From Seonamhaeicola algicola (GTDB lineage: Bacteria; Bacteroidota; Bacteroidia; Flavobacteriales; Flavobacteriaceae): a DNA stretch of 64,000 nt. The first letter of the stretch is position 1. The number at the start of each line of letters is the position of its first letter. The stretch covers positions 124,001 to 188,000 of the forward strand of contig NZ_VOSC01000005.1 in the NCBI RefSeq assembly GCF_007997385.1, given 5' to 3'. Positions 37,448 through 51,264 of this stretch are shown in pieces. The notes under the pieces were generated by a model that saw only the letters and a list, made by a program, of their open reading frames with translations, did no database searches and had not been told where the DNA came from. A program made the translations under genes and the position numbers.

Positions 37448-40147
37448 ATGCGTATTAAATACTTTTATCTAGTTATTATTTTAATTACTTCTGTTAAATT
37501 TAGTTATAGCCAAAACACTAAAGAAGCATCACCTTGGACGCCCGAAGATATTATAAACACTGAATATATGAGATCTGTTTCCATAGCACCCAATAATACT
37601 ATGGTTGTATGGACCAAACAAAAAGGGGTTAAGGATAAAGACCGTTTTATATCTGATATTTATTTAACAAGATTAGATTTAAAAGATGAAGCTAATTTTA
37701 AAACCATTCAACTAACCAATGGTAAAGACAATGATTACAGTCCAATTTTTTCAAAAGATGGTGAGTATATTTATTTTTTATCATCTAGAGATAAAGGCAA
37801 AAAGTTATGGAAATTAAGTATTTATGGAGGAGAAGCACAAGAAGTAAAAGAATTTAAAAACGGAATTTCTAATTTACAATGGAAAGATGAAGAAACACTA
37901 TTGTTTCAATCTAATGACGGTAAAACATTATATGAAATTACTAATGAAAAAAATAAAGATAACGTAGTAATTGTTGAAGATACTTTACACTGGAAACCCA
38001 ACCACGTGTATGCCTATAATATTAAACATAAAACAATAAAAAAACTTACTAACAATACCAATCCATTAACAAGTTATAAAATATCTAAAGACGGAAAATG
38101 GTTAATTTACGGTATGCAGCGTAATATTGCCTATGCTTCTGATGCGCAAAAAGATCCTTATCAGTATTTAAAAAACCTTGAAACAGGCAAGGTTGAAAAA
38201 ATACTTTCAAATTTTGAATACCCAACCTACGGGTTTCAATTTACAAATAATTCAAAAGGCTTTTATTTTTCTTCGGCATATGGTTCTAACCCAAAATACA
38301 ACGGGGCCGGAATTAATGAGCTATATTATTTTAATTTAGAAACCATGACGCATACTAAAGTAAATTTAAATTGGAACTTAGGGCATGCAGGAGGTTATTA
38401 TGTTGTTGGAAATGATGTTATAATTTCTTTGGCAAACAAAGCAACAAGACGTTTAGCATACTATAAAAAGAATGGTGATTCTTGGACAAAGAAAAAAATT
38501 GATTTAAAAGAAAAAAATGATCATGTAGCAATAAGTGCTATTTCTAATGATGGTAGTAAAATAGCTTACACATATTCAACAGCCTCAAAGTTACCAAGTT
38601 TTCTTATTTCAGACTTAAAAGAACATAAATTTTTAAATGAAGCAGAATTAGTTAAGTTGAATGAAAATTTACTAAAAAAACACATTACTAAAAGCGAAGT
38701 TATGGTTTGGAAAGGCTATGACAATGAGGAAGTTACAGGCATTTTATACTACCCTAAAAATTATGTTGAAGGTAAAAAATACCCGTTAATGCTTTCTATT
38801 CACGGCGGGCCAGCAAGTCAAGATTTAGATATGTGGTCTGAACGTTGGAGTACTTACCCAAATTTGTTAGCTCAAAAAGGTATGTTTATTTTAAAACCTA
38901 ATTATCATGGCTCTTCTAACCATGGATTATCGTATGTAGAAAGCATAAAAGAAAACTATTATGTGCCCGAGTTAGAAGATATTATAAAAGGTATTGAGGT
39001 ATTACACAATGAAGGTAAAATAGATAAAACTAAAATGGGTACAATGGGCTGGTCTAACGGCGCAATAATTAGTACTATGTTAACAGTAAAATATCCTGAT
39101 ATGTTTAAGGTAGCCGCTCCTGGAGCAGGTGATGTTAACTGGACATCAGATTATGGTACGTGTAGGTTTGGTGTAAGTTTTGATCAGCATTACTTTGGTG
39201 GTGCACCCTGGGATGATGTTAATGGTAAAACCTACAATGAAAACTACATACTTAAATCACCATTATTTGAAATTGAAAAAATTAAAACACCTACCATAAT
39301 ATTTCACGGAAGTGCAGATAGAGCAGTGCCTAGAGATCAAGGTTGGGAGTATTACAGAGGCTTACAACAAGTTGGTAAAGCGCCTGTGCGTTTTCTTTGG
39401 TTTCCTGATCAGCCTCACGGATTGGGAAAAATTACGCATCAGTTACGTAAAATGAAAGAAGAAATTACTTGGATAGAAACCTATTTACTTAACAAACCTA
39501 CAACCAGAAATGAAGCATTTAAAAAAGAAAGTCCTTTAGGTAATATTTTAAAACTTCAATCTGTAAAATCCGTAAATGGTTTGTATGGCGAATTAAATAA
39601 TAACAAGTTAATTCCTGAAACGGTTAGCATACAAAAAGATTCAACTTCCATTGGTCGTTTTGAAGTAACAAACGCACAGTTAAAAGCGTTTAAACAAAAT
39701 TATACTTATGCAGTTGGTCACGAAAATTATCCAGCGGTTGTAGATTTAGAAACCGCTAAAAATTACATTAATTGGTTAAATAAGTTAACCGGAAATGTTT
39801 ACAGGTTACCTAACAAAAAAGAAGCAAAAGCATTGCATAAATCTGCTAGAAAAGTTGCATCAAAAGAAAACATAGTAAACTATTGGGCAGGTTATCAGTT
39901 AACACCAAGCGATTTTGAAAAATTACAATTAAAATTGAACGATGTAAAAACATCGCTTTTAAAACCTGTAGGAAGCTTTAAAGCTGTTAAAATAGGTAAT
40001 GCTGAAATTTATGATTTAGGTGGTAATGTAGCAGAGTTTTATAATGATGGTATTTACGGCTACAGTGCTTATGATTATTATGATGTTTATAATGATGAAA
40101 ATTTATTAAAAAGTGATTACACAGGCATTAGGTTAATAAAAGAATAA
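37448..40147 (+). CDS. S9 prolyl-oligopeptidase-type peptidase fused to an FGE-like domain
   Basis: This encodes 899 residues with a signal peptide (about 1-22, ending SYSQ). Residues about 30-370 form a beta-propeller, and about 400-680 an alpha/beta hydrolase domain with nucleophile Ser536 in GWSNG, acid Asp in GSADRAVP and His in QPHGLG. From about 705 to the end is a domain like the formylglycine-generating/SUMF1 fold (VSIQKDSTSIGRFEVTNAQL, YRLPNKKEAKAL, GGNVAEFYND, GIRLIKE). That domain contains no cysteine, so it cannot be an active FGE and probably binds. Substrate peptides are unknown. Confidence 0.88.
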   Translation: MRIKYFYLVIILITSVKFSYSQNTKEASPWTPEDIINTEYMRSVSIAPNNTMVVWTKQKGVKDKDRFISDIYLTRLDLKDEANFKTIQLTNGKDNDYSPIFSKDGEYIYFLSSRDKGKKLWKLSIYGGEAQEVKEFKNGISNLQWKDEETLLFQSNDGKTLYEITNEKNKDNVVIVEDTLHWKPNHVYAYNIKHKTIKKLTNNTNPLTSYKISKDGKWLIYGMQRNIAYASDAQKDPYQYLKNLETGKVEKILSNFEYPTYGFQFTNNSKGFYFSSAYGSNPKYNGAGINELYYFNLETMTHTKVNLNWNLGHAGGYYVVGNDVIISLANKATRRLAYYKKNGDSWTKKKIDLKEKNDHVAISAISNDGSKIAYTYSTASKLPSFLISDLKEHKFLNEAELVKLNENLLKKHITKSEVMVWKGYDNEEVTGILYYPKNYVEGKKYPLMLSIHGGPASQDLDMWSERWSTYPNLLAQKGMFILKPNYHGSSNHGLSYVESIKENYYVPELEDIIKGIEVLHNEGKIDKTKMGTMGWSNGAIISTMLTVKYPDMFKVAAPGAGDVNWTSDYGTCRFGVSFDQHYFGGAPWDDVNGKTYNENYILKSPLFEIEKIKTPTIIFHGSADRAVPRDQGWEYYRGLQQVGKAPVRFLWFPDQPHGLGKITHQLRKMKEEITWIETYLLNKPTTRNEAFKKESPLGNILKLQSVKSVNGLYGELNNNKLIPETVSIQKDSTSIGRFEVTNAQLKAFKQNYTYAVGHENYPAVVDLETAKNYINWLNKLTGNVYRLPNKKEAKALHKSARKVASKENIVNYWAGYQLTPSDFEKLQLKLNDVKTSLLKPVGSFKAVKIGNAEIYDLGGNVAEFYNDGIYGYSAYDYYDVYNDENLLKSDYTGIRLIKE

Positions 40148-40192
40148 TTAAAAAAACTAAATTCAGTATTCATAAATAATTTATAAGATTAT

Positions 40193-40228
40193 AAAAAATC
40201 TCCACCTTAAAGCGTGGAGATTTTTTTT
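40193..40228 (+). terminator. Terminator after the S9 peptidase
   Basis: AAAAAATCTCCAC pairs with GTGGAGATTTTTT around an 8-nt loop and is followed by an 8-T tract. Its outline resembles the 37-bp repeat hairpins but the sequence differs. Confidence 0.9.
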
Positions 40229-40410
40229 GCATGTACAATTTCAAATTAGTTTAAAAAGCTGCTATTTCTAACATTATTCACAACGTTTTATAATCAATAA
40301 CAACTTTTTTTAAGTTATTAATTAGTGGTTTATCAAGTCTTTCATAACATTTTCTTATGCTTAAATAATTTTTGTTTAATTAAAATAAAAATAAGTTAAA
40401 CAAAATATCG

Positions 40411-40418
40411 TATCTTTG
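40411..40418 (+). promoter_or_regulatory. Candidate -7 element of the photolyase operon
   Basis: TATCTTTG fits TAnnTTTG and lies 35 nt before the TetR-type start. No clear -33 element is at the right spacing. This is the only good promoter candidate before the next eleven closely packed genes. Confidence 0.45.
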
Positions 40419-40453: not shown

Positions 40454-41107
40454 ATGGCAAAGAAAAAAAATATCACAAAAACAGATTTAATATCAATGTA
40501 TATGGATTTTGTTTTAGAACATAACGAAGACCCAAAGTCTGTATACAAATTCAGTAAGGATAACAATTTTGATGAAGCATTGTTTTATCAAAGTTTTACA
40601 TCTTTTGAAGCTATTAAAAACGAAATTTTCACTGTATTTTTTGAAAACACAATTGATTTGCTTCATAAAAGTGAAGAGTTTGAAAGTTTTGATGCCAGAA
40701 ATCAATTATTAAGTTTTTACTATACATTTTTTGAAATGCTTACAGCCAACCGTAGTTATGTGGTGTACGCTTTAAAACAACAAAAAAACAAGTTAGATGC
40801 TGTAAAAAGTTTAAAAGGTTTAAAGCATGGTTTTACAAAATTTATTGATGGTTTAAACATTGAAAAACTAGACATTAAACAAGAACGTTTAGAAAAAATT
40901 CAAAATAAAGCATTATGTGAAACCGCTTGGTTGCAATTGGTAGTAACCATTAAATTTTGGTTAGATGATAGTTCTGCTGGCTTTGAAAAAACCGATTTAT
41001 TCATTGAAAAATCAGTTAACGCAAGTTTTGATGTAATAAATATTGCACCTGTTAAAAGTGTAATTGATTTAGGGAAATTTTTGTTTAAAGAAAAAATGAT
41101 GCAATAA
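40454..41107 (+). CDS. TetR-family regulator heading the photolyase operon
   Basis: This encodes 217 residues. The N-terminal 50 residues form a TetR-type helix-turn-helix, degenerate in the recognition helix (YKFSKDNNFDEALFYQSFTSFEAIKNEIF), and the rest is an all-helical ligand domain. I place it in the TetR group with a C-terminal domain common in Bacteroidota next to ABC1 kinases. It overlaps the kinase start by 1 nt. As first gene it probably autoregulates the set. It has no B12-binding or other visible light-sensing domain. Confidence 0.8.
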   Translation: MAKKKNITKTDLISMYMDFVLEHNEDPKSVYKFSKDNNFDEALFYQSFTSFEAIKNEIFTVFFENTIDLLHKSEEFESFDARNQLLSFYYTFFEMLTANRSYVVYALKQQKNKLDAVKSLKGLKHGFTKFIDGLNIEKLDIKQERLEKIQNKALCETAWLQLVVTIKFWLDDSSAGFEKTDLFIEKSVNASFDVINIAPVKSVIDLGKFLFKEKMMQ

Positions 41108-42420
41108 TGAAAACTATAGATACAATACCTACATCAAAAATTCAGCGTGCTTCAAAACTTGTGCAAACAGGGGCTAAAGTTGGTGTAAATTACCTAAAAT
41201 ACTACGGAAGTAAATTGGTTAATGGTGAAGATGAAGCTAAAGAGCAGTTAAACAAAGATAATGCTGAAGATATTTATGACGGTTTAAAGCAACTAAAAGG
41301 AAGTGCCTTAAAAGTTGCCCAAATGTTAAGTATGGAAAAAGGTATTTTACCCCAAGCATATGTTGAGCAATTTTCATTATCACAGTTTTCAGTGCCACCA
41401 TTATCGGCACCTTTAGTAAAAAAAACATTCAAAAAATACTTTGGTAAAAACCCAGATGAGTTGTTTGATACTTTTAACCTAAATGCAGTAAGCGGAGCAA
41501 GCATCGGACAAGTTCACGTAGCTAAAAAAGATGGTAAAAAATACGCAGTTAAAATTCAATATCCAGGAGTTGCCGAAAGTATTTCAACAGATTTAGCATT
41601 AGTAAAACCCATAGCAATTAAAATGTTTAACATACGTGGTAAAGACAGCGATAAATATTTTAAAGAGGTTGAAAATAAATTAATTGAAGAAACTAATTAT
41701 GTATTAGAAGTAGAACAAAGTCAGGCCATTGTTAATGCTTGTAAACACATACCAAATTTACAATTTCCAAATTATTACAAAAATTTATCTTCCGATAGAA
41801 TAATTACAATGGATTGGATGGATGGCATTCACTTGTCTGAATTCACAAAACAAAACACCAACAAAGAAGTTGCCAACAAACTAGGGCAAGCTTTATGGGA
41901 TTTTTACATGTACCAAATGCATGTGCTTAAAAAAGTACATGCAGATCCGCACCCCGGAAATTTTATGATATCTAAAAGCAATGAATTAATAGTAATTGAT
42001 TTTGGATGTATGAAAGAAGTACCCGAGGAGTTTTATGTGCCTTATTTTGAATTAGCTAAAAAAGAAAATATATCAAACCCAAATCTTTTTGAGCAAAAAC
42101 TTTATGAGTTAGAAATTTTAAGAGCAGATGATAGTAAAGAAGAACTTGCATTTTTCAAAGATATGTTTCATGAAATGTTAAGTTTATTTACCGAGCCTTT
42201 CAATACAGAAACTTTTGATTTTTCAGATGAAACTTTCTTTGGAAAAATAACAGAATTAGGTACAAAATATTCAAAAAACACAGAGTTGCGTAACATGAAT
42301 GGTAACCGTGGCTCAAAGCATTTCATTTATATAAACCGTACGTTTTTTGGCTTGTATAATTTAATGCATGATTTAAAAGCTACCAACATAATAATAAATA
42401 ATTTCAAAACATACATATGA
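41107..42420 (+). CDS. ABC1/UbiB (AarF)-family atypical kinase
   Basis: This encodes 437 residues of the UbiB/COQ8 protein-kinase-like family, linked to quinone and lipid metabolism. Motifs seen are SGASIGQVHVA (nucleotide-loop equivalent), YAVKIQYPGV with the catalytic Lys, LIEETNYVLEVEQS, HADPHPGNF (catalytic loop) and VIDFGCMKE (metal Asp). The N-terminal family motif KxGQ appears as KVAQ (Ala for Gly). No C-terminal membrane anchor is obvious. Overlaps both neighbours (1 and 4 nt). Confidence 0.9.
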   Translation: MKTIDTIPTSKIQRASKLVQTGAKVGVNYLKYYGSKLVNGEDEAKEQLNKDNAEDIYDGLKQLKGSALKVAQMLSMEKGILPQAYVEQFSLSQFSVPPLSAPLVKKTFKKYFGKNPDELFDTFNLNAVSGASIGQVHVAKKDGKKYAVKIQYPGVAESISTDLALVKPIAIKMFNIRGKDSDKYFKEVENKLIEETNYVLEVEQSQAIVNACKHIPNLQFPNYYKNLSSDRIITMDWMDGIHLSEFTKQNTNKEVANKLGQALWDFYMYQMHVLKKVHADPHPGNFMISKSNELIVIDFGCMKEVPEEFYVPYFELAKKENISNPNLFEQKLYELEILRADDSKEELAFFKDMFHEMLSLFTEPFNTETFDFSDETFFGKITELGTKYSKNTELRNMNGNRGSKHFIYINRTFFGLYNLMHDLKATNIIINNFKTYI

Positions 42421-43049
42421 TTTTTTTTAATACTGAAGATATACATGGCTTTGATAAAATTTACAGAATTAATTTAATGAATAGCCTTTCAGGTTACAAA
42501 TCTGCTAACCTAATTGGAAGTGTTTCAAACAATGCTGAAGAAAACGTAGCTGTATTTAGTTCTGTAATACATTTAGGTTCAAATCCGCCACTTTTGGGGT
42601 TTATTTTACGTCCAAACACAGTGCCTCGTAATACGTATGAGAATATAAAAGACACCGGTTTTTATACTATAAATCATATAAATGAAGCTTTTATTGAGCG
42701 TGCTCATCATACATCAGCAAAATATCCAAAAGGCGTTTCAGAGTTTGAGGTTACAGGTTTAACACCTGTGTATAAAAATAGTTTCAAAGCTCCTTTTGTA
42801 AAAGAATCATCAGTACAAATAGGTTTAAAGTATGTAGAAGAATATCATATTAAAGCCAATAATACCATTTTAGTTGTTGGTGAAATACAACAGTTTTATG
42901 TTGATACAGCTATGCTTGAAACAGATGGTTTTTTAAACCTTTCAAAAGCTAAAACAGCTACAATTAATGGTTTAGATGGTTATGCCATTCCAAAGTTAAA
43001 CACACGTTTTGAATATCAAAGACCAAAAACTTTAGAAAAAAAGTTATAA
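42417..43049 (+). CDS. Flavin reductase-like FMN-binding protein
   Basis: This encodes 210 residues of the FMN-binding split-barrel (flavin reductase-like) family. The pattern RINLMNSLSGYKSANLIGSVSNNAEENVAVFSSV and GSNPPLLGFILRP with NTYENIKDTGFYTIN is characteristic. It may reduce or hold flavin for the cryptochromes encoded just downstream, but that is inference from linkage. It overlaps the kinase by an ATGA. No signal peptide. Confidence 0.85.
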   Translation: MIFFNTEDIHGFDKIYRINLMNSLSGYKSANLIGSVSNNAEENVAVFSSVIHLGSNPPLLGFILRPNTVPRNTYENIKDTGFYTINHINEAFIERAHHTSAKYPKGVSEFEVTGLTPVYKNSFKAPFVKESSVQIGLKYVEEYHIKANNTILVVGEIQQFYVDTAMLETDGFLNLSKAKTATINGLDGYAIPKLNTRFEYQRPKTLEKKL

Positions 43050-43050
43050 A

Positions 43051-44475
43051 ATGAAAATTTTAATCACAGGAACAACCGGTTATATTGCCAAAAGGCTCGC
43101 TTTAAAGCTAATTGAAAGCGGGCACGAGTTGGTGTGTTGTGTACGTGATTTAAACAGAATTCCTGATGAAATAGAATTTAAAAACCAAGTTGAATTTATA
43201 AAAGTTGATTTTTTAAACAGCAACTTACCAGATTTACCTAAAGATATTGATGCCGCATATTATCTTATTCATTCTATGGCAACAACAGCCAATAATTTTG
43301 AGAATTTAGAAAAAAAATGTGCTCAAAATTTTAAAACATTGGTTGAAAAAACTAATTGCAAGCAGGTTATTTATTTAAGTGGTATTGTTAATGACAAATC
43401 ATTATCTACACACTTAAAATCTAGATTGCAGGTTGAAAATACTTTGCAATCAAAAAACTATGCATTAACCACATTTAGAGCAGGTATTATAGTGGGTAGT
43501 GGTAGCGCATCATTTGAAATTATAAGAGATATAGTTGAAAAACTACCAATAATGATAACGCCCAAGTGGTTAAATACAAAAACACAGCCTATTGCTATTA
43601 GAGATGTTTTACTGTTTTTAGAACGGGCATTATTAAACCCAAAACTATTAAATAAGTCTTTTGATATTTGTGGCCCCGAGGTTTTAACCTACAAACAAAT
43701 GCTATTGCAGTTTGCAAATGTTAGAGGGTTTAAAAGGTATATAATTACTTTGCCTGTATTGTCACCAAAAATGTCGTCATACTGGTTGTATTTTGTAACA
43801 TCAACATCATTTAATTTGGCAAAAGCTTTAGTTGATAGTATGAAAGTTGAAGTAGTAGCAAAACCAAGTAATATCAATCAAATTCTTGGAGTTTTTCCTA
43901 TTACCTATAAAAAAGCAGTAGACCTAGCTTTTCAAAAAATAGAGCAAAATGCTGTTGTTTCCAGTTGGAAAGATGCTATGAGTAGTGGTGTTTTCAATTC
44001 ACAATTAAGTAAACATATACAAATTCCGCAATATGGGTGTTTTAAAGATTTACGTTCTGTACCTGTTAGTAACGAAACTCAAACACTAAATAAAATATGG
44101 TCTATTGGCGGAGAAAACGGGTGGTATAGTTTCAATTGGCTATGGCGTATTAGAGGTTATATAGATAAGTTGTTTGGTGGTGTTGGCTTAAGGCGAGGCA
44201 GAACACATAATACATATTTAGAGCCTGGTGATCCGGTAGATTTTTGGCGTGTTTTATTAGCCGATAAAGAAGAAAAACGCCTATTGTTATTTGCCGAAAT
44301 GAAACTACCTGGAGAGGCTTGGTTAGAATTTAAAATAGTAAAAAATCAATTATTTCAGCGTGCCGTTTTTAGGCCCAAAGGTATTTGGGGTCGCCTATAT
44401 TGGTTCTCGGTTTTACCATTTCATGCCTTTGTTTTTAATGGTATGATAAAGGCTTTAGTAGCTAATGACAAGTAG
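43051..44475 (+). CDS. SDR-type NAD(P)-binding protein with DUF2867 domain
   Basis: This encodes 474 residues. The N-terminal 290 residues are an atypical short-chain dehydrogenase Rossmann fold ([25 protein letters not shown]), lacking the classical YxxxK at the usual spacing. The C-terminal about 150 residues match DUF2867 ([29 protein letters not shown], then [12 protein letters not shown]). This YbjT-like pair is often found near photolyase and carotenoid genes. The substrate is unknown. It overlaps the next small gene by 11 nt. Confidence 0.85.
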
Positions 44476-44608
44476 AAAAAAACAACATTTACCCAGTAAA
44501 ATATGTCCTGTTTGCGAACGACCATTTACATGGCGAAAAAAATGGGAGCGAGACTGGGAGAATGTAAAATATTGTAGTAAAAAATGCAGCAAAACAAAAC
44601 AGCCATAG
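44465..44608 (+). CDS. DUF2256 small zinc-ribbon-like protein
   Basis: This 47-residue gene reads [12 protein letters not shown], then [18 protein letters not shown], and ends with YCSKKC and a lysine-rich tail. The CPVC and CSKKC pairs should hold one zinc, and the [13 protein letters not shown] core is the DUF2256 signature. It overlaps the upstream gene by 11 nt and the DASH cryptochrome by 25 nt in other frames, so it is easily missed. The family is typically linked with cryptochrome/photolyase genes, which fits here. Function is unknown. Confidence 0.85.
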
Positions 44609-45888
44609 TATGGTTTACTAATAATTTACGTGTTCAAGATAATGAAGCTTTATATCAGGCTTGTGCTAATTACAAGCAAGTAATTGCAGTGTATTGTTTT
44701 GATGAGGAATTATTTACAAAAACACAGTTTGGATTTAAAAAAATTGAAAAATATAGAGCACAGTTTTTAAGAGAATCGGTTATAGATCTTCAAAAAAACT
44801 TACAATATTTAAATGTTCCTTTTTCTATTTATTATGGGTGTCCGCAACAGGTGGTTACAAGTGTATGTTTAGAAAACAAAGCGGACGCCCTCTTTTTTCA
44901 GAAAGAGTTTACTAGTGAAGAAAACAAACAAATAGATGCTGTATTAAAAAACTTGCCAAAACATGTAACAACTCATAGTTTTTATGATCAGTTTTTATTT
45001 CATCCAGATGATGTGCCATTTTCTATTAGAAAACTACCAGAGGTTTTTACAATATTTAGAAAAAAGGTTGAAAAATTATCAGAAGTAAGATCAAGGTTCT
45101 CACTTCTCCCTAAAAAAGAAACAAAAGTATCAGTTTCTGAATCTAAAGTACCATCTTTAAAAGCATTAGGCTTCGATTCATTTGAGCTTCCTGTAAATAC
45201 TGCTTTTCCTTTTAAAGGAGGAGAAACAGCCGCGTTACAAAGGTTAAATGATTATTTTTTTAATACTAAAAAGCTAGCTTTTTACAAGAAAACAAGAAAC
45301 GGACTTATTGGGACAGATTATAGTTCTAAATTTTCATCATGGCTAGCAAACGGAAGCATCTCAGCAAAAACCATTTATTGGAAAGTTAGAGAGTTTGAAA
45401 ATGAATTTGGTGGAAATCAATCTACCTACTGGATGATTTTTGAGCTTATTTGGAGAGATTATTTCAAGTTTATTGCTTTAAAACACCAAAATAAGCTGTT
45501 TAAAATTAGTGGTTTAAAAAACATACACTACGATTGGAAAGAAAGTCAAGCTCAAATAGATCGATGGATTAACGGAGAAACTCAAGAGCCATTTGTAAAC
45601 GCGAATATGATAGAGTTAAAATTAACTGGTTGGATGAGTAATAGAGGAAGGCAAAATGTAGCATCTTATTTTGCTAAAGAATTGCTGTTAGATTGGCGAA
45701 TTGGAGCTGCATATTTTGAGAGTATGTTAATAGATTATGATGTACACAGTAACTACGGAAATTGGCAATATGTAGCAGGTGTAGGGAATGATCCAAGAGA
45801 TAGAAAGTTTAATGTTCAGCTACAGGCAGAAAGGTATGATGGCAAAGGTGCTTTTCAACGCATGTGGTTACAACCAACACTTTTTTAG
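44584..45888 (+). CDS. Cryptochrome of the DASH type
   Basis: This 434-residue flavoprotein has the photolyase alpha/beta N-terminal domain ([17 protein letters not shown]) and the C-terminal helical FAD-binding domain. DASH-type features are [47 protein letters not shown] and [22 protein letters not shown]. The FAD-contact Asn and adjacent Trp in SNYGNWQY are retained, so electron transfer should work. DASH proteins repair CPD lesions in single-stranded DNA and may signal. The next gene begins 2 nt after its stop. Confidence 0.93.
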
Positions 45889-45890
45889 TT

Positions 45891-47396
45891 ATGAATGAAG
45901 TTACTGTTATATTTCCGCATCAATTATTTAAAAATACTGAGTTTTTACCATCAAAAACAACTGTGTTTTTAGTAGAAGAATACTTGTTTTTTAGTCAATA
46001 TAATTTTCATAAACAAAAAGTAGCTTTCCATAGAGCAAGTATGAAATTTTATGAAAGCTTTTTAGTAGACAAAGGTTTCAAAGTTACCTATGTAGAAGCA
46101 TCAGATAAAAGAAGTGATGTTAGAAAGTTATTTTCTTTTTTTATTGATGAAGAGATAACAACAGTTCATATAATAAACCCTACTGATAATTGGCTGGAGA
46201 AAAGAATAAAAACTTTTTCAGAGCAAATATCAATTCAGTATTATGAAAATCCGTTATTTATAAATTCTAAAGAAGAATTAAGTTCATTTTTTAAACCCAA
46301 CAAAAAGAAATTTTTTCAAACGTCATTTTATAAAAATCAACGTACAGATAGAAATATTTTAGTCACAAACGGTGAACCCGTTGGTGGTAAATGGACTTTT
46401 GATGCAGATAACAGAAAAAAATATCCAAAAGATAAAACACCTCCAACTATTACATATCCAAAGGTTAATAAACACTTTAAAGAAGCAGTAGGTTATGTAA
46501 ATGCCAACTTTAAAAATAATATAGGTGAGGTAGATTCAATCCAGTACTATCCTACAACTTTTAAAGAATCTGAAGATTGGTTACAAGATTTTTTTAAGGT
46601 GCGTTTTCATGATTTTGGAGCTTATGAAGATGCTATTGTAAAAAAAGAACATTTTTTAAATCACAGTATTCTATCTCCTTTAATTAATGTTGGATTATTA
46701 TCTCCATTATATGTAATTGAAGAGGCTATAGATTTTGCGGCTAAAAATGACATTCCTATTAATTCTTTAGAAGGTTTTGTCAGACAAATTTTAGGGTGGA
46801 GAGAATTTATAAGAGGTGTTTATGAAGTAAAAGGTACCGAAGAACGTACAAAGAATTTTTGGAATCATACTAGAAAAATACCAGCTTCATTTTATACCGG
46901 AACAACCGGTATTGATCCTATAGATACTACAATTAAAAAACTATTAAAAACAGGATATGCGCATCACATAGAACGTTTAATGATTTTAGGAAATTTTATG
47001 TTGTTATGTGAGTTTGACCCTGATGAGGTTTACAAATGGTTTATGGAGTTGTTTATTGATGCTTATGATTGGGTTATGGTACCAAATGTATATGGTATGA
47101 CTTTGTTTGCAGACGGTGGTTTAATGTCTACAAAACCCTATATAAGTAGTAGTAATTATATAAAAAAAATGAGTGACTATCCTAATGGAGAATGGCAGCA
47201 AATTTGGGATGGTTTATTTTGGAATTTTATGGATAAAAACAGAAGTTTTTTGAGTAAAAATCCACGTTTAAATATGTTATTGTCCAATTTAGATAAAATG
47301 GATAATTCCAAAAGAGAAACTCATTTTAAAAACGCTGCTATGTTTTTTGAACAATTAGAAAATCCTAAAAAAGAAACACAGCTTAATTTATTATAA
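45891..47396 (+). CDS. FeS-BCP-type cryptochrome/photolyase lacking the cluster cysteines
   Basis: This encodes 501 residues from ATG 45891 (an earlier in-frame codon lies within the DASH gene). The fold matches the bacterial (6-4) photolyase/CryB group: VTVIFPHQLF, then EGFVRQILGWREFIRG, HHIERLMILGNFMLL, VMVPNVYGMTLFADGG and TKPYISSSNYIKKMSDY. Relatives bind a 4Fe-4S cluster through one Cys before, and three after, this region. Here the places read GIDPIDTT near residue 342 and DYPNGEWQQIWDG near 427-440; the only Cys is in LLCEFDP. So cluster binding is very unlikely, while the FAD site looks intact. Confidence 0.9.
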   Translation: MNEVTVIFPHQLFKNTEFLPSKTTVFLVEEYLFFSQYNFHKQKVAFHRASMKFYESFLVDKGFKVTYVEASDKRSDVRKLFSFFIDEEITTVHIINPTDNWLEKRIKTFSEQISIQYYENPLFINSKEELSSFFKPNKKKFFQTSFYKNQRTDRNILVTNGEPVGGKWTFDADNRKKYPKDKTPPTITYPKVNKHFKEAVGYVNANFKNNIGEVDSIQYYPTTFKESEDWLQDFFKVRFHDFGAYEDAIVKKEHFLNHSILSPLINVGLLSPLYVIEEAIDFAAKNDIPINSLEGFVRQILGWREFIRGVYEVKGTEERTKNFWNHTRKIPASFYTGTTGIDPIDTTIKKLLKTGYAHHIERLMILGNFMLLCEFDPDEVYKWFMELFIDAYDWVMVPNVYGMTLFADGGLMSTKPYISSSNYIKKMSDYPNGEWQQIWDGLFWNFMDKNRSFLSKNPRLNMLLSNLDKMDNSKRETHFKNAAMFFEQLENPKKETQLNLL

Positions 47397-48887
47397 ATGA
47401 GTAAAAAAGAAAACATATCTGTTGTTTGGTTAAAACGAGATTTGCGTTTACATGATAATGAAGCAATATATAACGCTTTACAGTCAGGAAACAGAGTGCT
47501 TTTTATGTTTGTTTTCGAAAATTTACTACTTCAAGATGCACATTACAGTAAGCGTCATTGGAACTTTATAAAACAATCTATTCAAGATTTAAACGAAGAT
47601 TTAAAACACTATAACACGCAAGTTTTTTGTGCCACTGGAGAAATTTTTGCCATTTTTAATCAGTTACTTACCAATTTTGATGTAACACAAGTATTTTCTC
47701 ATCAAGAAACAGGATTACAAGTTACTTTTAATAGAGATAAAGAATTCGCTAGATATTGTAGAAACAATTCTATTGAATGGATAGAAAATATAAATAATGG
47801 TGTATTAAGAGGTTTATTAAATAGAGAAGATTGGTTTGATAAGTGGGAACGTTATATGTATTTACCACAAATACCTTTTGAAGCTTCTTCTGAAAATTTT
47901 ATTAGTATTGATGAAATCCAAAACATAAGTAAGTATTTTCATATTACAGATTTATCAACAGAAAAAGACGTAAATTTTCAATATGGCGGAACAAAAATGG
48001 CTTGGAAGTATGCAGATTCTTTTTTTAATGAACGATATGAAAAATATATGTTTCATATATCTAAACCAGAAGCGTCTAGAAGTAGTTGCAGTAGGTTATC
48101 ACCATATATAGCTTGGGGAAATGTATCTATCAGAACCGTATTTCAAAAAGCCAAAGAAGTTAAAGCGCAATCAAAAAATAAAAGACATTTAAGCGCTTTT
48201 ATATCTCGATTACGATGGCAAGCGCACTTCATTCAAAAGTTCGAAATGGAGTCTACTATGGAAAATGCAAGTGTTAATAAGGGATATCATAAGCTAAAAA
48301 AATCTATATCAGAAACCTATAAAACTGCTTGGGAAACAGGATATACGGGTTTTCCTTTAGTAGATGCTTCTATGCGTTGTTTAGCACAAACAGGTTATAT
48401 AAATTTTAGAATGCGCGCTATGTTAGTATCTTTTTTTACGCATATTTTATGGCAACCATGGCAAGAGGCAACCCATCATTTATCACGCTTATTTCTTGAT
48501 TTTGAACCTGGTATTCATTTTCCACAATTACAGATGCAAGCAGGTGAAACAGGTATTAATAATTTAAGAATTTATAATCCTGTTAAAAATGGACAAGAAC
48601 ATGACCCTGATGCTGTTTTCATAAAAAAATGGGTGCCTGAATTAGCTCATTTACCAGTTCCTTTTATTCATGAACCCTATTTATTGACTCCTTTAGAGCA
48701 ACAATTTAATAATTGCATTATTGGGGAAGATTATCCAGCTCCAATTGTAGATATTAAAGAGAATAGAAAACGTGCTAGTGATATTTTATGGAATATGAAA
48801 AAAGATCCTGAAGTACGTAGAGAAAGCTATAGAATTTTAAAAAAGCATACAATTGATAATAGAAGTAGAATGTTAAGAGATGAATAA
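47397..48887 (+). CDS. Divergent cryptochrome/photolyase-family flavoprotein
   Basis: This encodes 496 residues with the usual N-terminal domain (VVWLKRDLRLHDNEAIYNAL) and C-terminal FAD domain (TGYTGFPLVDASMRCLAQTGYINFRMRAM, RIYNPVKNGQEHDPDAVFIKKWVPELAHLP). Against classic CPD photolyases the damage-site Glu of ELxWREF is Arg-like (SRLRWQAHF), the Asn of HNRxRM is Phe, and the NNGGWQW block is HFPQLQMQ, losing the flavin-facing Asn and the first Trp of the electron chain. This fits a separate, little-studied subgroup with HFxQxQMQAG. It overlaps the next gene by 1 nt. Confidence 0.88.
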   Translation: MSKKENISVVWLKRDLRLHDNEAIYNALQSGNRVLFMFVFENLLLQDAHYSKRHWNFIKQSIQDLNEDLKHYNTQVFCATGEIFAIFNQLLTNFDVTQVFSHQETGLQVTFNRDKEFARYCRNNSIEWIENINNGVLRGLLNREDWFDKWERYMYLPQIPFEASSENFISIDEIQNISKYFHITDLSTEKDVNFQYGGTKMAWKYADSFFNERYEKYMFHISKPEASRSSCSRLSPYIAWGNVSIRTVFQKAKEVKAQSKNKRHLSAFISRLRWQAHFIQKFEMESTMENASVNKGYHKLKKSISETYKTAWETGYTGFPLVDASMRCLAQTGYINFRMRAMLVSFFTHILWQPWQEATHHLSRLFLDFEPGIHFPQLQMQAGETGINNLRIYNPVKNGQEHDPDAVFIKKWVPELAHLPVPFIHEPYLLTPLEQQFNNCIIGEDYPAPIVDIKENRKRASDILWNMKKDPEVRRESYRILKKHTIDNRSRMLRDE

Positions 48888-49312
48888 TGATATTTAATAC
48901 CACATATACAAATGAAGACTTTTTAGTCCATAGTAAAGAATTACTAGGGAAACCATTCTCGTTACTAAATAAAGTTAAACTGAATGGAGTAGGTTCTGGC
49001 CGTTTTATTATAGCAGAAGTAAGCCAGAAATTAAAATCAAAGAAAGTTCAATTTTCAGAATTAAATTATGGAAACATCGAAATGCGTCCTAAAGGTATTT
49101 TAGTGCATTTTACAAACAGATTAGAGCGCTTTTCATGGTGTATTCCATACCACAAATTAGTAGTGTACAACGCTTCGTTTTTTAGCATTCATGCCGAAGG
49201 AAGTTTTATAAAATTTTTAAAAAACAAAAACTATTCAGAGAATAAGAAATTCATTTCAAAAATGATTGATTATAAAAATGAATATCTAAATCTAGATTAT
49301 TATGACGGATAG
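48887..49312 (+). CDS. Hypothetical protein of the photolyase operon
   Basis: This encodes 141 residues, not recognised. It appears compact and beta-rich (SGRFIIAEVSQKLKSKKVQFSEL, GILVHFTNRLERFSWCIPYHKLVVY), then a lysine-rich helical end. There is no signal peptide or membrane segment. It overlaps both the upstream cryptochrome (1 nt) and the downstream TIGR03643 gene (11 nt), so it belongs to the same transcript and its product should be made in step with theirs. No function proposed. Confidence 0.75.
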   Translation: MIFNTTYTNEDFLVHSKELLGKPFSLLNKVKLNGVGSGRFIIAEVSQKLKSKKVQFSELNYGNIEMRPKGILVHFTNRLERFSWCIPYHKLVVYNASFFSIHAEGSFIKFLKNKNYSENKKFISKMIDYKNEYLNLDYYDG

Positions 49313-49568
49313 AGAAATCGATAGAATTATTGAAATGGCTTGGGAAGATAGAACCACTTTTGATGCTATTCAGTTTCAATTTGGTTTAAAAGAGCAGGAG
49401 GTTATTAACTTAATGCGAAGAGAAATGAAGCCTTCTAGTTTTAAAATGTGGCGCAAAAGAGTTCAAGGTAGAGCTACAAAACATGAAGCTAAAAGAGCAT
49501 TTATAAAAGGTCGTTTTAAATGTTCAAGACAAAGAAATATATCTAATAATAAAATATCTAAAAGATAA
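49302..49568 (+). CDS. TIGR03643 family protein
   Basis: This encodes 88 residues. The sequence MTDREIDRIIEMAWEDRTTFDAI, then FGLKEQEVINLMRREMKPSSFKMWRKRVQGR, is the TIGR03643 pattern: a short helix-turn-helix-like fold with a basic tail rich in Arg and Lys, suggesting nucleic-acid binding. The family is known mainly from its location near cryptochrome/photolyase genes. Role is unknown; together with the DUF2256 protein it makes two small basic proteins in this operon. Confidence 0.87.
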   Translation: MTDREIDRIIEMAWEDRTTFDAIQFQFGLKEQEVINLMRREMKPSSFKMWRKRVQGRATKHEAKRAFIKGRFKCSRQRNISNNKISKR

Positions 49569-49571
49569 AAT

Positions 49572-50252
49572 ATGAAAACAATTATAGTAGTAGGAGGGAG
49601 TAAAGGTATTGGAGCTGCCATTATAAACAGCTTAAAAGATACTCATAAGGTTATTAACATTAGTAGAACAGCAGCAATATCACATACTAATGTTACCAAT
49701 TACGCCGTAAATGTTTTAGAGGACGAGCTGCCAGAAATAGAATCGACAATTAATGGATTAGTGTATTGCCCAGGTAGTATTAATTTAAAACCTATTAACC
49801 TATTAAGTTTAGATGATTTTAGAGCTGATTTTGAGATTAATGTTTTAGGAGCTGTTAAGGTTATTCAAAAATATGTTAATAATTTAAAGAATAACAACGG
49901 TAGTGTAGTATTGTTTAGTACGGTAGCAACTAAGTTAGGAATGCCTTTTCATGCAAGTGTTGCAGCAAGTAAATCTGCCGTAGAAGGTTTAACAAAATCA
50001 CTGGCCGGAGAATTTGCTACCAAGGTACGTTTTAATTGTATTGCACCTACTGTTACAGAAACATCATTAGCAGACAAACTATTAAGAAACGACAAACAAA
50101 AAGAAAACATGGAGAATAGACATCCATTAAAAACCTATTTACAACCTACTGATGTTGCGAGTTTAGCAAATTATTTATTGTCAGATAACGCTTTGGCTAT
50201 TTCAGGACAAGTATTTCCAATAGACGCAGGTATTGTTAGTTTAAAATTATAA
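49572..50252 (+). CDS. SDR-family oxidoreductase
   Basis: This encodes 226 residues, a classical short-chain dehydrogenase: nucleotide motif VVGGSKGIGAAI, NVLGAVKVIQ, catalytic Ser in LFSTVATKLG and Lys in the HASVAASKSAVEGL segment where the expected Tyr of YxxxK is Val (VAASK). Loss of the Tyr may reduce or change activity. It ends in ISGQVFPIDAGI, as usual. It sits 3 nt after the TIGR03643 gene. Substrate is unknown. Confidence 0.88.
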   Translation: MKTIIVVGGSKGIGAAIINSLKDTHKVINISRTAAISHTNVTNYAVNVLEDELPEIESTINGLVYCPGSINLKPINLLSLDDFRADFEINVLGAVKVIQKYVNNLKNNNGSVVLFSTVATKLGMPFHASVAASKSAVEGLTKSLAGEFATKVRFNCIAPTVTETSLADKLLRNDKQKENMENRHPLKTYLQPTDVASLANYLLSDNALAISGQVFPIDAGIVSLKL

Positions 50253-50256
50253 TAAT

Positions 50257-50784
50257 ATGATGTTCCTTTATCTTTTAAATTTATTATTTATACAAACACA
50301 TATTATGATAGCAGATTTTTCAAATTCATACCCTATAGAATCATGGAATATTACTAATGATGTTGTTATGGGAGGCCTATCAAATTCTTCTATGAGTTTA
50401 ACTAGTGATGGCTATGCTGTGTTTTCAGGAGATGTTTCCACCAAAAATAATGGAGGTTTTGCTATGACAAGACATACAGAATCCATCAATTTTGATAAAA
50501 GTCATTCTAAAATAGTTTTAAAAGTTAAAGGGGACGGAAAAAAATATCAGTTTAGAATAAAATCTAATATATATCAACGTTATTGGTACATACAAACATT
50601 TAATACAACAGGCGAGTGGGAAGAGATTACCTTATTGCTAAACGATTTTTATCCATCTTTTAGAGGAAGAAAGCTAGATATAGCTAACTTTTCATCAGAA
50701 AATATTGAAGAGATAGCACTATTAATCGGTAATAAAAAAGACGAAAGCTTTAAGTTATTGATAGATTCTATCAAAATTTATTAA
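50257..50784 (+). CDS. CIA30-domain protein
   Basis: This encodes 175 residues with a CIA30 (complex I intermediate-associated protein 30) jelly-roll fold: WNITNDVVMGGLSNSSMSL, SGDVSTKNNGGFAMTR, KVKGDGKKYQFRIKS and a closing LLIDSIKIY. The N-terminal 18 residues are hydrophobic and could be a signal peptide, though an internal Met (about residue 17) would give a cytoplasmic form. In bacteria this fold is often linked to carotenoid or photoprotection loci. It is 4 nt after the SDR gene. Confidence 0.85.
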   Translation: MMFLYLLNLLFIQTHIMIADFSNSYPIESWNITNDVVMGGLSNSSMSLTSDGYAVFSGDVSTKNNGGFAMTRHTESINFDKSHSKIVLKVKGDGKKYQFRIKSNIYQRYWYIQTFNTTGEWEEITLLLNDFYPSFRGRKLDIANFSSENIEEIALLIGNKKDESFKLLIDSIKIY

Positions 50785-50793
50785 ATTAGTTAC

Positions 50794-51264
50794 ATGTTTA
50801 AACCAATAATTCGTTTTTTTATATTTTTAGTTGCTAATTTTTTGGCATTGTACATTGGTACTTTATTGATGAATGAAGGACCACAAACTCCTTGGTATCA
50901 AAATTTAAATAAAGCTCCGTGGACGCCACCCGGTTGGGTTTTTGGTGCAGCATGGACTACCATAATGGTTTTATTTGCGCTTTACATGACCAAACTAAGC
51001 TTTCAATTTTATCTTTTTGATAAAAAACTAATTCTTTTATATTCTTTACAATGGGTTTTAAATGTAAGTTGGAACTTATTCTTTTTTAACAAACACCTTA
51101 CAGCTATTGGTTTAGTAATCATAACACTGCTTTGGTTAATAATAGGATATTTTACGTTTAAGTTTAAAAAAGATCTTAGCTATAATACGTTATTTATTTT
51201 ACCTTACTTAATTTGGATGACCATTGCTACTAGCTTAAATGCCTATGTAGTTTTGTATAATTAA
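50794..51264 (+). CDS. tspO: TspO/MBR-family membrane protein
   Basis: This encodes 156 residues with five transmembrane helices. Family marks are TPWYQNLNKAPWTPPGWVFGAAWTT and LQWVLNVSWNLFFF. TspO proteins bind porphyrins and other tetrapyrroles and, in other bacteria, tune light- or oxygen-dependent pigment and stress responses. It is the last gene of the photolyase set, 9 nt after the CIA30 gene. The following gene is 37 nt away and of unrelated function. Confidence 0.95.
   Translation: MFKPIIRFFIFLVANFLALYIGTLLMNEGPQTPWYQNLNKAPWTPPGWVFGAAWTTIMVLFALYMTKLSFQFYLFDKKLILLYSLQWVLNVSWNLFFFNKHLTAIGLVIITLLWLIIGYFTFKFKKDLSYNTLFILPYLIWMTIATSLNAYVVLYN

Follow-up and report, generated by a model that had tools for sequence, protein, structure and literature searches.

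The genome of Seonamhaeicola algicola (Flavobacteriaceae; NCBI RefSeq assembly GCF_007997385.1) harbors a 13-gene operon with three photolyase-family proteins in a 64,000-nucleotide (nt) stretch of contig NZ_VOSC01000005.1 (positions 124,001 to 188,000, hereafter the window). This operon is probably a member of a light regulon controlled from the carotenoid locus, where a MerR regulator of the CarH/LitR type is encoded, and not by the TetR-like protein that the operon itself encodes. The 13 open reading frames (ORFs), all on the + strand, occupy window positions 40454-51264, and the distances between consecutive genes range from -25 to +9 nt, the largest gap being 9 nt. Coordinates, profile matches and gaps thereby confirmed the tight operon and the families that a first-pass annotation of this DNA had proposed.

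The central evidence comes from the DNA preceding the first gene, which we compared among 46 relatives and the window (47 regions, seven of which are the window and its Tenacibaculum relatives). Most of these regions exhibit TTGTTTAA-N16-TTAAACAA, followed after 3-8 nt by TATCTTTA/G. In the window, this putative operator forms a perfect inverted repeat at 40372-40403, with no strand assigned, supported by the upstream-region comparison and by shuffles. It is followed on the + strand by the -7 box TATCTTTG (40411-40418), which we take to be of the TAnnTTTG type of Bacteroidota and which occupies the same position class in the compared regions. The operator with a 16-nt spacer was detected in 44 of the 47 regions when up to two mismatches per half were allowed; with at most one mismatch per half, 38 matches had spacer 16, two had spacer 12, and none had any other spacer from 10 to 22. 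Across 1500 dinucleotide-shuffled versions of the window, a single exact match arose, and the whole genome of S. algicola yielded eight sites at up to one mismatch versus two with the reversed pattern. Combined with the -7 box, the operator was found in 94 of 149 genomes sampled from the family and in 31 of 247 sampled from the class, the reversed control matching once in each sample; 28 operator-bearing genomes lack DUF2805, one of the operon's small proteins. No second operator was detected within the operon at up to two mismatches, and other genera carry additional operators ahead of two cluster genes, one encoding the 141-residue protein U141 and the other a protein labeled 'SRPBCC' (PF03364). 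Four genomes from other families of the class (G041, G626, G722 and G744) showed the operator with an extra half-site, in the tandem form TTGTTTAA...TTAAACA...TGTTTAACTTT.

The genes beside the operator also favor the light-regulon reading. In addition to the operon, the eight S. algicola sites include one before a 299-residue MerR-type gene, one between this gene and crtI, a neighboring pair ahead of a fasciclin gene, and one where mvaD meets a mevalonate-kinase-like gene; the remaining two, one of them at a cytochrome gene's end and the other inside an ORF, look like chance or are unexplained. Behind crtI lie genes for a protein of the phytoene/squalene-synthase family and one with a lycopene cyclase domain. 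Among 30 operator loci, whose adjacent genes were mostly named by eye (cluster genes and crtI from their N-termini), the neighbor was TetR in nine, U141 in six, SRPBCC in five, crtI in two, fasciclin in two, TspO in one and DUF2805 in one; of the other four, L169 and L173 lie beside cluster-type genes, while L193 and L194 received no assignment. At crtI and at one fasciclin gene, the -7 box is oriented away from the coding sequence, and in L166, L180, L185 and L186 the TetR gene that follows the operator adjoins a divergent htpG-like gene outside the photolyase cluster. The sharing of one operator by the operon and the MerR/carotenoid genes supports the light-related role suggested in the first-pass annotation. 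The twin operator before the fasciclin-domain protein lies at G000:C1:472619-472693 (G000 being the S. algicola genome), and fasciclin-adjacent operators also occur in L167 and L176. A rhodopsin search of the same genome gave no match, and its controls were silent too, so that nothing follows from it.

The candidate regulator is the 299-residue MerR-type protein (G000:C3:60307-61203, outside the window), whose gene is adjacent to crtI. It contains MerR_1 (PF13411) and B12-binding_2 (PF02607), both above cut-off, which is the domain content of the CarH/LitR family, and its best PDB match is the regulator 3whp, followed by CarH 5c8d. In nine distinct regulator sequences, ExHxxG was conserved in all and Wx9EH in eight, the S. 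algicola protein retaining both. A passage of PMC8156234 presents Wx9EH plus the B12 motif as defining CarH, and Wx9EH as absent from CarA. Relatives of the regulator were present in 121 of the 149 family genomes, of which 10 were classed as weak (E above 1e-55) and 111 as strong. The operator occurred in 91 of the 111 genomes with a strong orthologue versus 3 of the 38 others (Fisher 1.7e-16, with genomes treated as independent) and, on the same footing, in 83 of 100 versus 1 of 16 when only genomes at least 95% complete were considered (n = 116). At least seven exact operators, in seven genomes and picked by eye among the matches listed, are located 4-62 nt from the regulator gene, and 12 others on the same contigs lie more than 28 kb away. 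The flanks of five strong-orthologue loci all contained the operator at up to two mismatches, two of these loci having been chosen with its presence known, whereas the flanks of the one weak paralogue locus examined contained none.

These observations would fit a mechanism in which, in the dark, the regulator with adenosyl-cobalamin occupies TTGTTTAA-N16-TTAAACAA, whose downstream end lies 3-8 nt ahead of the -7 box, and so blocks the promoter. Light would break the cobalamin bond and release the regulator from DNA, allowing the joint expression of carotenoid genes, photolyases (DASH and the (6-4)-type DPRP) and genes for photo-oxidative defense. The defense set would comprise the short-chain dehydrogenases (SDRs), the flavin reductase and TspO, to which other genera would add FolE, glutathione peroxidase, the SRPBCC-type protein and a class I photolyase. 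The sequences themselves show the operon, the operator, the conservation, the co-occurrence and the family of the regulator; binding by the regulator, its use of B12 and the direction of the light response are inferred.

Several observations weigh against this reading. The best NCBIfam match of the regulator, the CarH equivalog NF052513, reached 66.9 bits against a cut-off of 400. In place of the motif end x41-SxV/T-x22-27-GG, the protein has YFT and then, by hand count, GP after 30 residues, and by the same count SxV/T is preserved only in part, by half. Next to the motif Trp, Gln takes the place of His. The co-occurrence tests ignore phylogeny, and the exact operator is absent from 20 of the 111 genomes with a strong orthologue. 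At two mismatches, the operator falls to background, with one match versus 0.83 expected in the window and 35 sites versus 31 in the control across the genome. No operator was found within three mismatches in the flanking stretch examined around the class I photolyase encoded elsewhere in the genome (C2:112935). As to the half-sites, both of those in the window match the CarH consensus nAnnTnnACAn as given in a passage of PMC8156234; across 42 operators, the full consensus was found in only 17 right and 28 left halves, and the shorter TnnACA, being almost implied by the search pattern itself, gives no independent support. CarH operators, as that passage describes them, are direct 11-bp repeats, whereas the flavobacterial operator is an inverted repeat.

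The foremost alternative is one in which the operator does belong to the MerR regulator, and this protein acts independently of B12, as a CarA-like regulator or a redox or singlet-oxygen sensor, so that the operon answers photo-oxidative stress and not light directly. The partly degenerate B12 motif and the low NCBIfam CarH score would suit it, as would a Vibrio cholerae MerR protein proposed, in a passage of PMC5241685, to act through reactive oxygen species. The retention of Wx9EH in eight of the nine regulator sequences argues the other way, and we regard this alternative as unlikely.

A still less probable explanation is that the TetR-like protein encoded by the first gene (40454-41107, + strand) binds the palindrome, represses its own operon and senses a photoproduct or tetrapyrrole, as the first-pass annotation had suggested in naming it a TetR-type regulator. 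In favor of this explanation, the TetR gene stands directly behind the operator in nine of the 30 operator loci, the structure model is TetR-like, a profile search of the PDB found TetR regulators, and the narrow 24-residue core of the helix-turn-helix (HTH) is near neutral (-3 to +3). However, the protein matched only the C-terminal TetR_C_23 and not the HTH model TetR_N, which detected eight other proteins in the genome. The stretch equivalent to TetR_N has a median net charge of -3 among 46 homologues, 37 of which are negative there (the homologues are not independent), in contrast to mostly positive values in the eight TetR proteins of the same genome (+1, +1, +1, +2, -1, +4, +4 and +1). 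Furthermore, the operator is also found at merR-crtI and in the 28 genomes without DUF2805. A motif search of the compared loci for TetR proteins to serve as controls retrieved none. On balance, we ranked repression by the TetR-like protein below control by the MerR regulator. Since the N-terminal domain is acidic and lacks TetR_N, and since the operator is common to the MerR regulator and the carotenoid genes, light itself is more likely to be the signal than a photoproduct or tetrapyrrole. That the operon is an ordinary ultraviolet-repair cluster with a constitutive promoter, its palindrome being a structural or RNA element, is very improbable: a standard -7 box is present and AT-rich palindromes arise by chance at two mismatches, but spacer 16 is dominant, the reversed control matched once in 149 genomes, and the operator tracks the MerR gene.

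Because the TetR_N-equivalent stretch is acidic and TetR_N itself gave no match, the TetR-fold protein has likely lost DNA binding. Its conservation was highest at residues 81-104 (0.86) and 151-215 (0.76), followed by the HTH region (0.65) and residues 105-150 (0.54). The structure model (predicted local distance difference test, pLDDT, 78) resembled TetR regulators as well as human COQ9, with no match reaching E <= 0.001; COQ9 chains took ranks 4-7 (TM up to 0.60/0.66, E 0.009-0.03), interspersed with TetR regulators. The next gene encodes an atypical kinase of the ABC1 / UbiB-COQ8 family (41107-42420, +), and the two may form a COQ9/COQ8-like pair. Like COQ9/COQ8, they combine a TetR fold lacking a recognizable TetR_N with a neighboring ABC1 kinase gene (TetR and ABC1 each in 37 of 80 family loci). 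Unlike them, the PDB profile search returned TetR regulators and not COQ9, and the kinase scores under the UbiB equivalog cut-off. The pair retains the operator in loci without photolyases.

The gene neighborhood was examined from the side of DUF2805, which was present in 113 of 395 genomes of a phylum sample and in 83 of the 149 of the family sample. We compared 140 loci: 80 from Flavobacteriaceae anchored on DUF2805 (80 of 84 non-window match rows; the four left out, all in G408, G470 and G512, were either fragments or second rows) and 60 from outside the family, of which 59 were anchored and one had no anchor. Many genera share the order TetR, ABC1, flavin reductase, SDR-DUF2867, DUF2256, DASH, DPRP, third photolyase-like protein, U141, DUF2805, FolE (PF01227), SDR, glutathione peroxidase (assigned by eye), TspO, SRPBCC and class I photolyase. 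Because the same order recurs across genera, this arrangement is not due to chance. At least seven of the nine genes from TetR to U141 were present in 21 of the 80 family loci, all nine in 12, and none in 16; individual counts were 37 for TetR and for ABC1, 45 for DPRP, 32 for DASH, 35 for U141, 47 for SDR226, 41 for SRPBCC, 40 for class I photolyase and 1 for CIA30. A photolyase-family gene lay within 10 kb of DUF2805 in 56 of the 80 family loci, compared with 14 of the 59 anchored loci outside the family, where U141 was found in none and CIA30 in three. The conserved, linked module foreseen in the first-pass annotation, for which a check of neighborhood conservation had been proposed, is hence supported, and its statement that DUF2805/TIGR03643 is known mainly from photolyase neighborhoods fails outside the family. 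CIA30 (50257-50784, +), listed there as a module member, was rejected as a core gene, being rare in the family-wide module; it was labeled in five of six Tenacibaculum loci (L002-L006).

DUF2805 also occurs in other settings. An AlkB-like 2-oxoglutarate-Fe(II) oxygenase (PF13532, matched on one representative) adjoins it or lies nearby, with no photolyases, in L011, L015, L024, L026, L030, L031, L044, L045, L053, L055, L057 and L086, often with a DoxX-like gene alongside; several of these loci also have the TetR/ABC1 pair close by, next to a gene identified by eye as htpG-like. Many genomes of one large genus (G021, G025, G057 and others of genus g2) carry a second, divergent DUF2805 of ~97 residues (E about 1e-20). 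A short photolyase-like protein of ~370 residues, SPL-like by size only, was observed in alternative clusters (L008, L051, L063 and 11 other loci), some of which also carry DUF2452.

In the set of 200 photolyase-family sequences, five groups were distinguished. The sixth gene of the operon (44584-45888, +) encodes a Cry-DASH photolyase that keeps its key residues, reaches 502 bits with TIGR02765 against a cut-off of 317, and finds its best structure matches in 6kii and 1np7. The seventh (45864-47396, +) encodes a DPRP, or prokaryotic (6-4) photolyase, identified by profile match and alignment; by inspection, its start is probably the ATG at 45891 rather than the GTG at 45864. At the four FeS cysteine positions, which we placed by what we take to be the PhrB numbering, it has P, gap, gap and Q, a pattern outside that of FeS-BCP. 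Within the DPRP set (n = 62), 30 sequences keep all four cysteines and 32, including that of the window, have none, while the His-His pair is kept in 60. In fold and in this pair, the window protein resembles both FeS-BCP and subgroup M, the group as which FeS-less (6-4) photolyase relatives are known in a passage of PMC9178010. Its lack of all four cysteines is a feature also reported there for subgroup M, of which it would be a candidate member. The eighth gene (47397-48887, +) encodes the third photolyase-family protein (FAD_binding_7), in which the WRE/WRD catalytic acid, the FAD-N5 Asn and the proximal Trp are replaced by A, H and L. All three residues are present at these columns, placed by the E. 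coli numbering, in members of the DASH and class I groups. The motifs around the altered columns are conserved in a group of 38 sequences of the third protein.

Downstream of it lies U141 (48887-49312, +), which had no family match and belongs to a conserved family. Its model (pLDDT 84) predicts a PH-like fold, with a best match at E 0.001, and its relatives from named genomes comprised eight loci (six of Tenacibaculum, one of Algibacter and one of Winogradskyella). DUF2805/TIGR03643 (49302-49568, +) has a basic C-terminal tail; PDB profile searches with DUF2805 and U141 gave nothing convincing. DUF2256 (PF10013; 44465-44608, +) is a small protein whose four Cys were invariant in 26 aligned sequences, and a passage of PMC4047054 places it in the cysteine-rich TRASH clan. 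It is possible, and we put it forward only tentatively, that the TetR-fold protein and its ABC1 kinase neighbor handle isoprenoid lipids as a light-induced, COQ9/COQ8-like pair in a bacterium that makes carotenoids, that the third photolyase-family protein has a flavoprotein role other than repair, and that U141 and DUF2805 are dedicated partners of the B12-light regulon; for each small protein, and for the other products beyond family level, function is here an inference.

The remaining genes, all on the + strand, encode a flavin reductase-like protein (Flavin_Reduct, PF01613; 42417-43049), an NAD(P)-binding SDR joined to DUF2867 (PF11066 and PF13460; 43051-44475), an SDR (49572-50252) and TspO/MBR (50794-51264), and a TrmH-like gene begins 37 nt downstream of the operon end. 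On the upstream side, a terminator-like stem-loop with a T-run as its 3' arm (about 40193-40228, +; RNA fold of 40190-40235 at -15.8 kcal/mol) stands between an S9 peptidase gene and the operon. This stem-loop was missing from the output of the consensus terminator scan, and the sigma-70 and terminator scans gave matches at no more than the level of shuffled sequence. The S9 peptidase (37448-40147) bears a C-terminal FGE-sulfatase (formylglycine-generating-enzyme-like) domain.

The proposed regulon has recognizable counterparts. In Pseudomonas, a passage of PMC9758184 assigns phrB, ufaM, an SDR, cryB and folE to the class II LitR regulon (PplR/PmlR); the flavobacterial case is alike in placing operonic genes for a photolyase, CryB/DPRP, an SDR and FolE under MerR-type control, here a predicted one. 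Unlike Pseudomonas LitR, the flavobacterial regulator keeps the C-terminal ExHxxG and adjoins crt genes, its operator is an 8-N16-8 inverted repeat instead of TGTACA-N12-TGTACA, and the TetR-fold/ABC1 pair, U141 and DUF2805 are additional. With CarH/LitR of Thermus, Bacillus and Myxococcus, it shares a MerR HTH plus a B12-binding four-helix bundle, Wx9EH, ExHxxG, an operator at the promoter and a crt target, whereas it falls under the equivalog cut-off, lacks the GG end and has Gln beside the Trp. In gene content, fasciclin included, it also resembles the Rhodobacter RpoE-ChrR regulon, the singlet-oxygen response of which, according to a passage of PMC7074977, comprises photolyases, CryB, an SDR, FolE2, fasciclin, glutathione peroxidase and TspO; there, in contrast, the regulator is of another class, and the operon described here has no extracytoplasmic function (ECF) sigma/ChrR pair. 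Blue-light genes of Vibrio cholerae, as presented in part of PMC5241685, offer a further parallel in content. Among the matches listed from the open-access literature, we came across no account of a LitR/CarH regulon from the Flavobacteriaceae, and a study of light-induced carotenoids in Chryseobacterium states, in a passage of PMC7064467, that no car/lit operon genes were found, leaving the regulator open.

In view of these parallels in content, the system would be a variant of a known regulon type, namely a light regulon of the LitR/CarH type from Bacteroidota whose operator has a form of its own and several of whose members have no assigned function. It would unite DUF2256, DUF2805, U141, the TetR_C_23/ABC1 pair and the photolyase-like protein with carotenoid synthesis in a single predicted light regulon, and it supplies a regulator, an operator and a stimulus that can be tested for a gene set distributed across many genera of Flavobacteriaceae.

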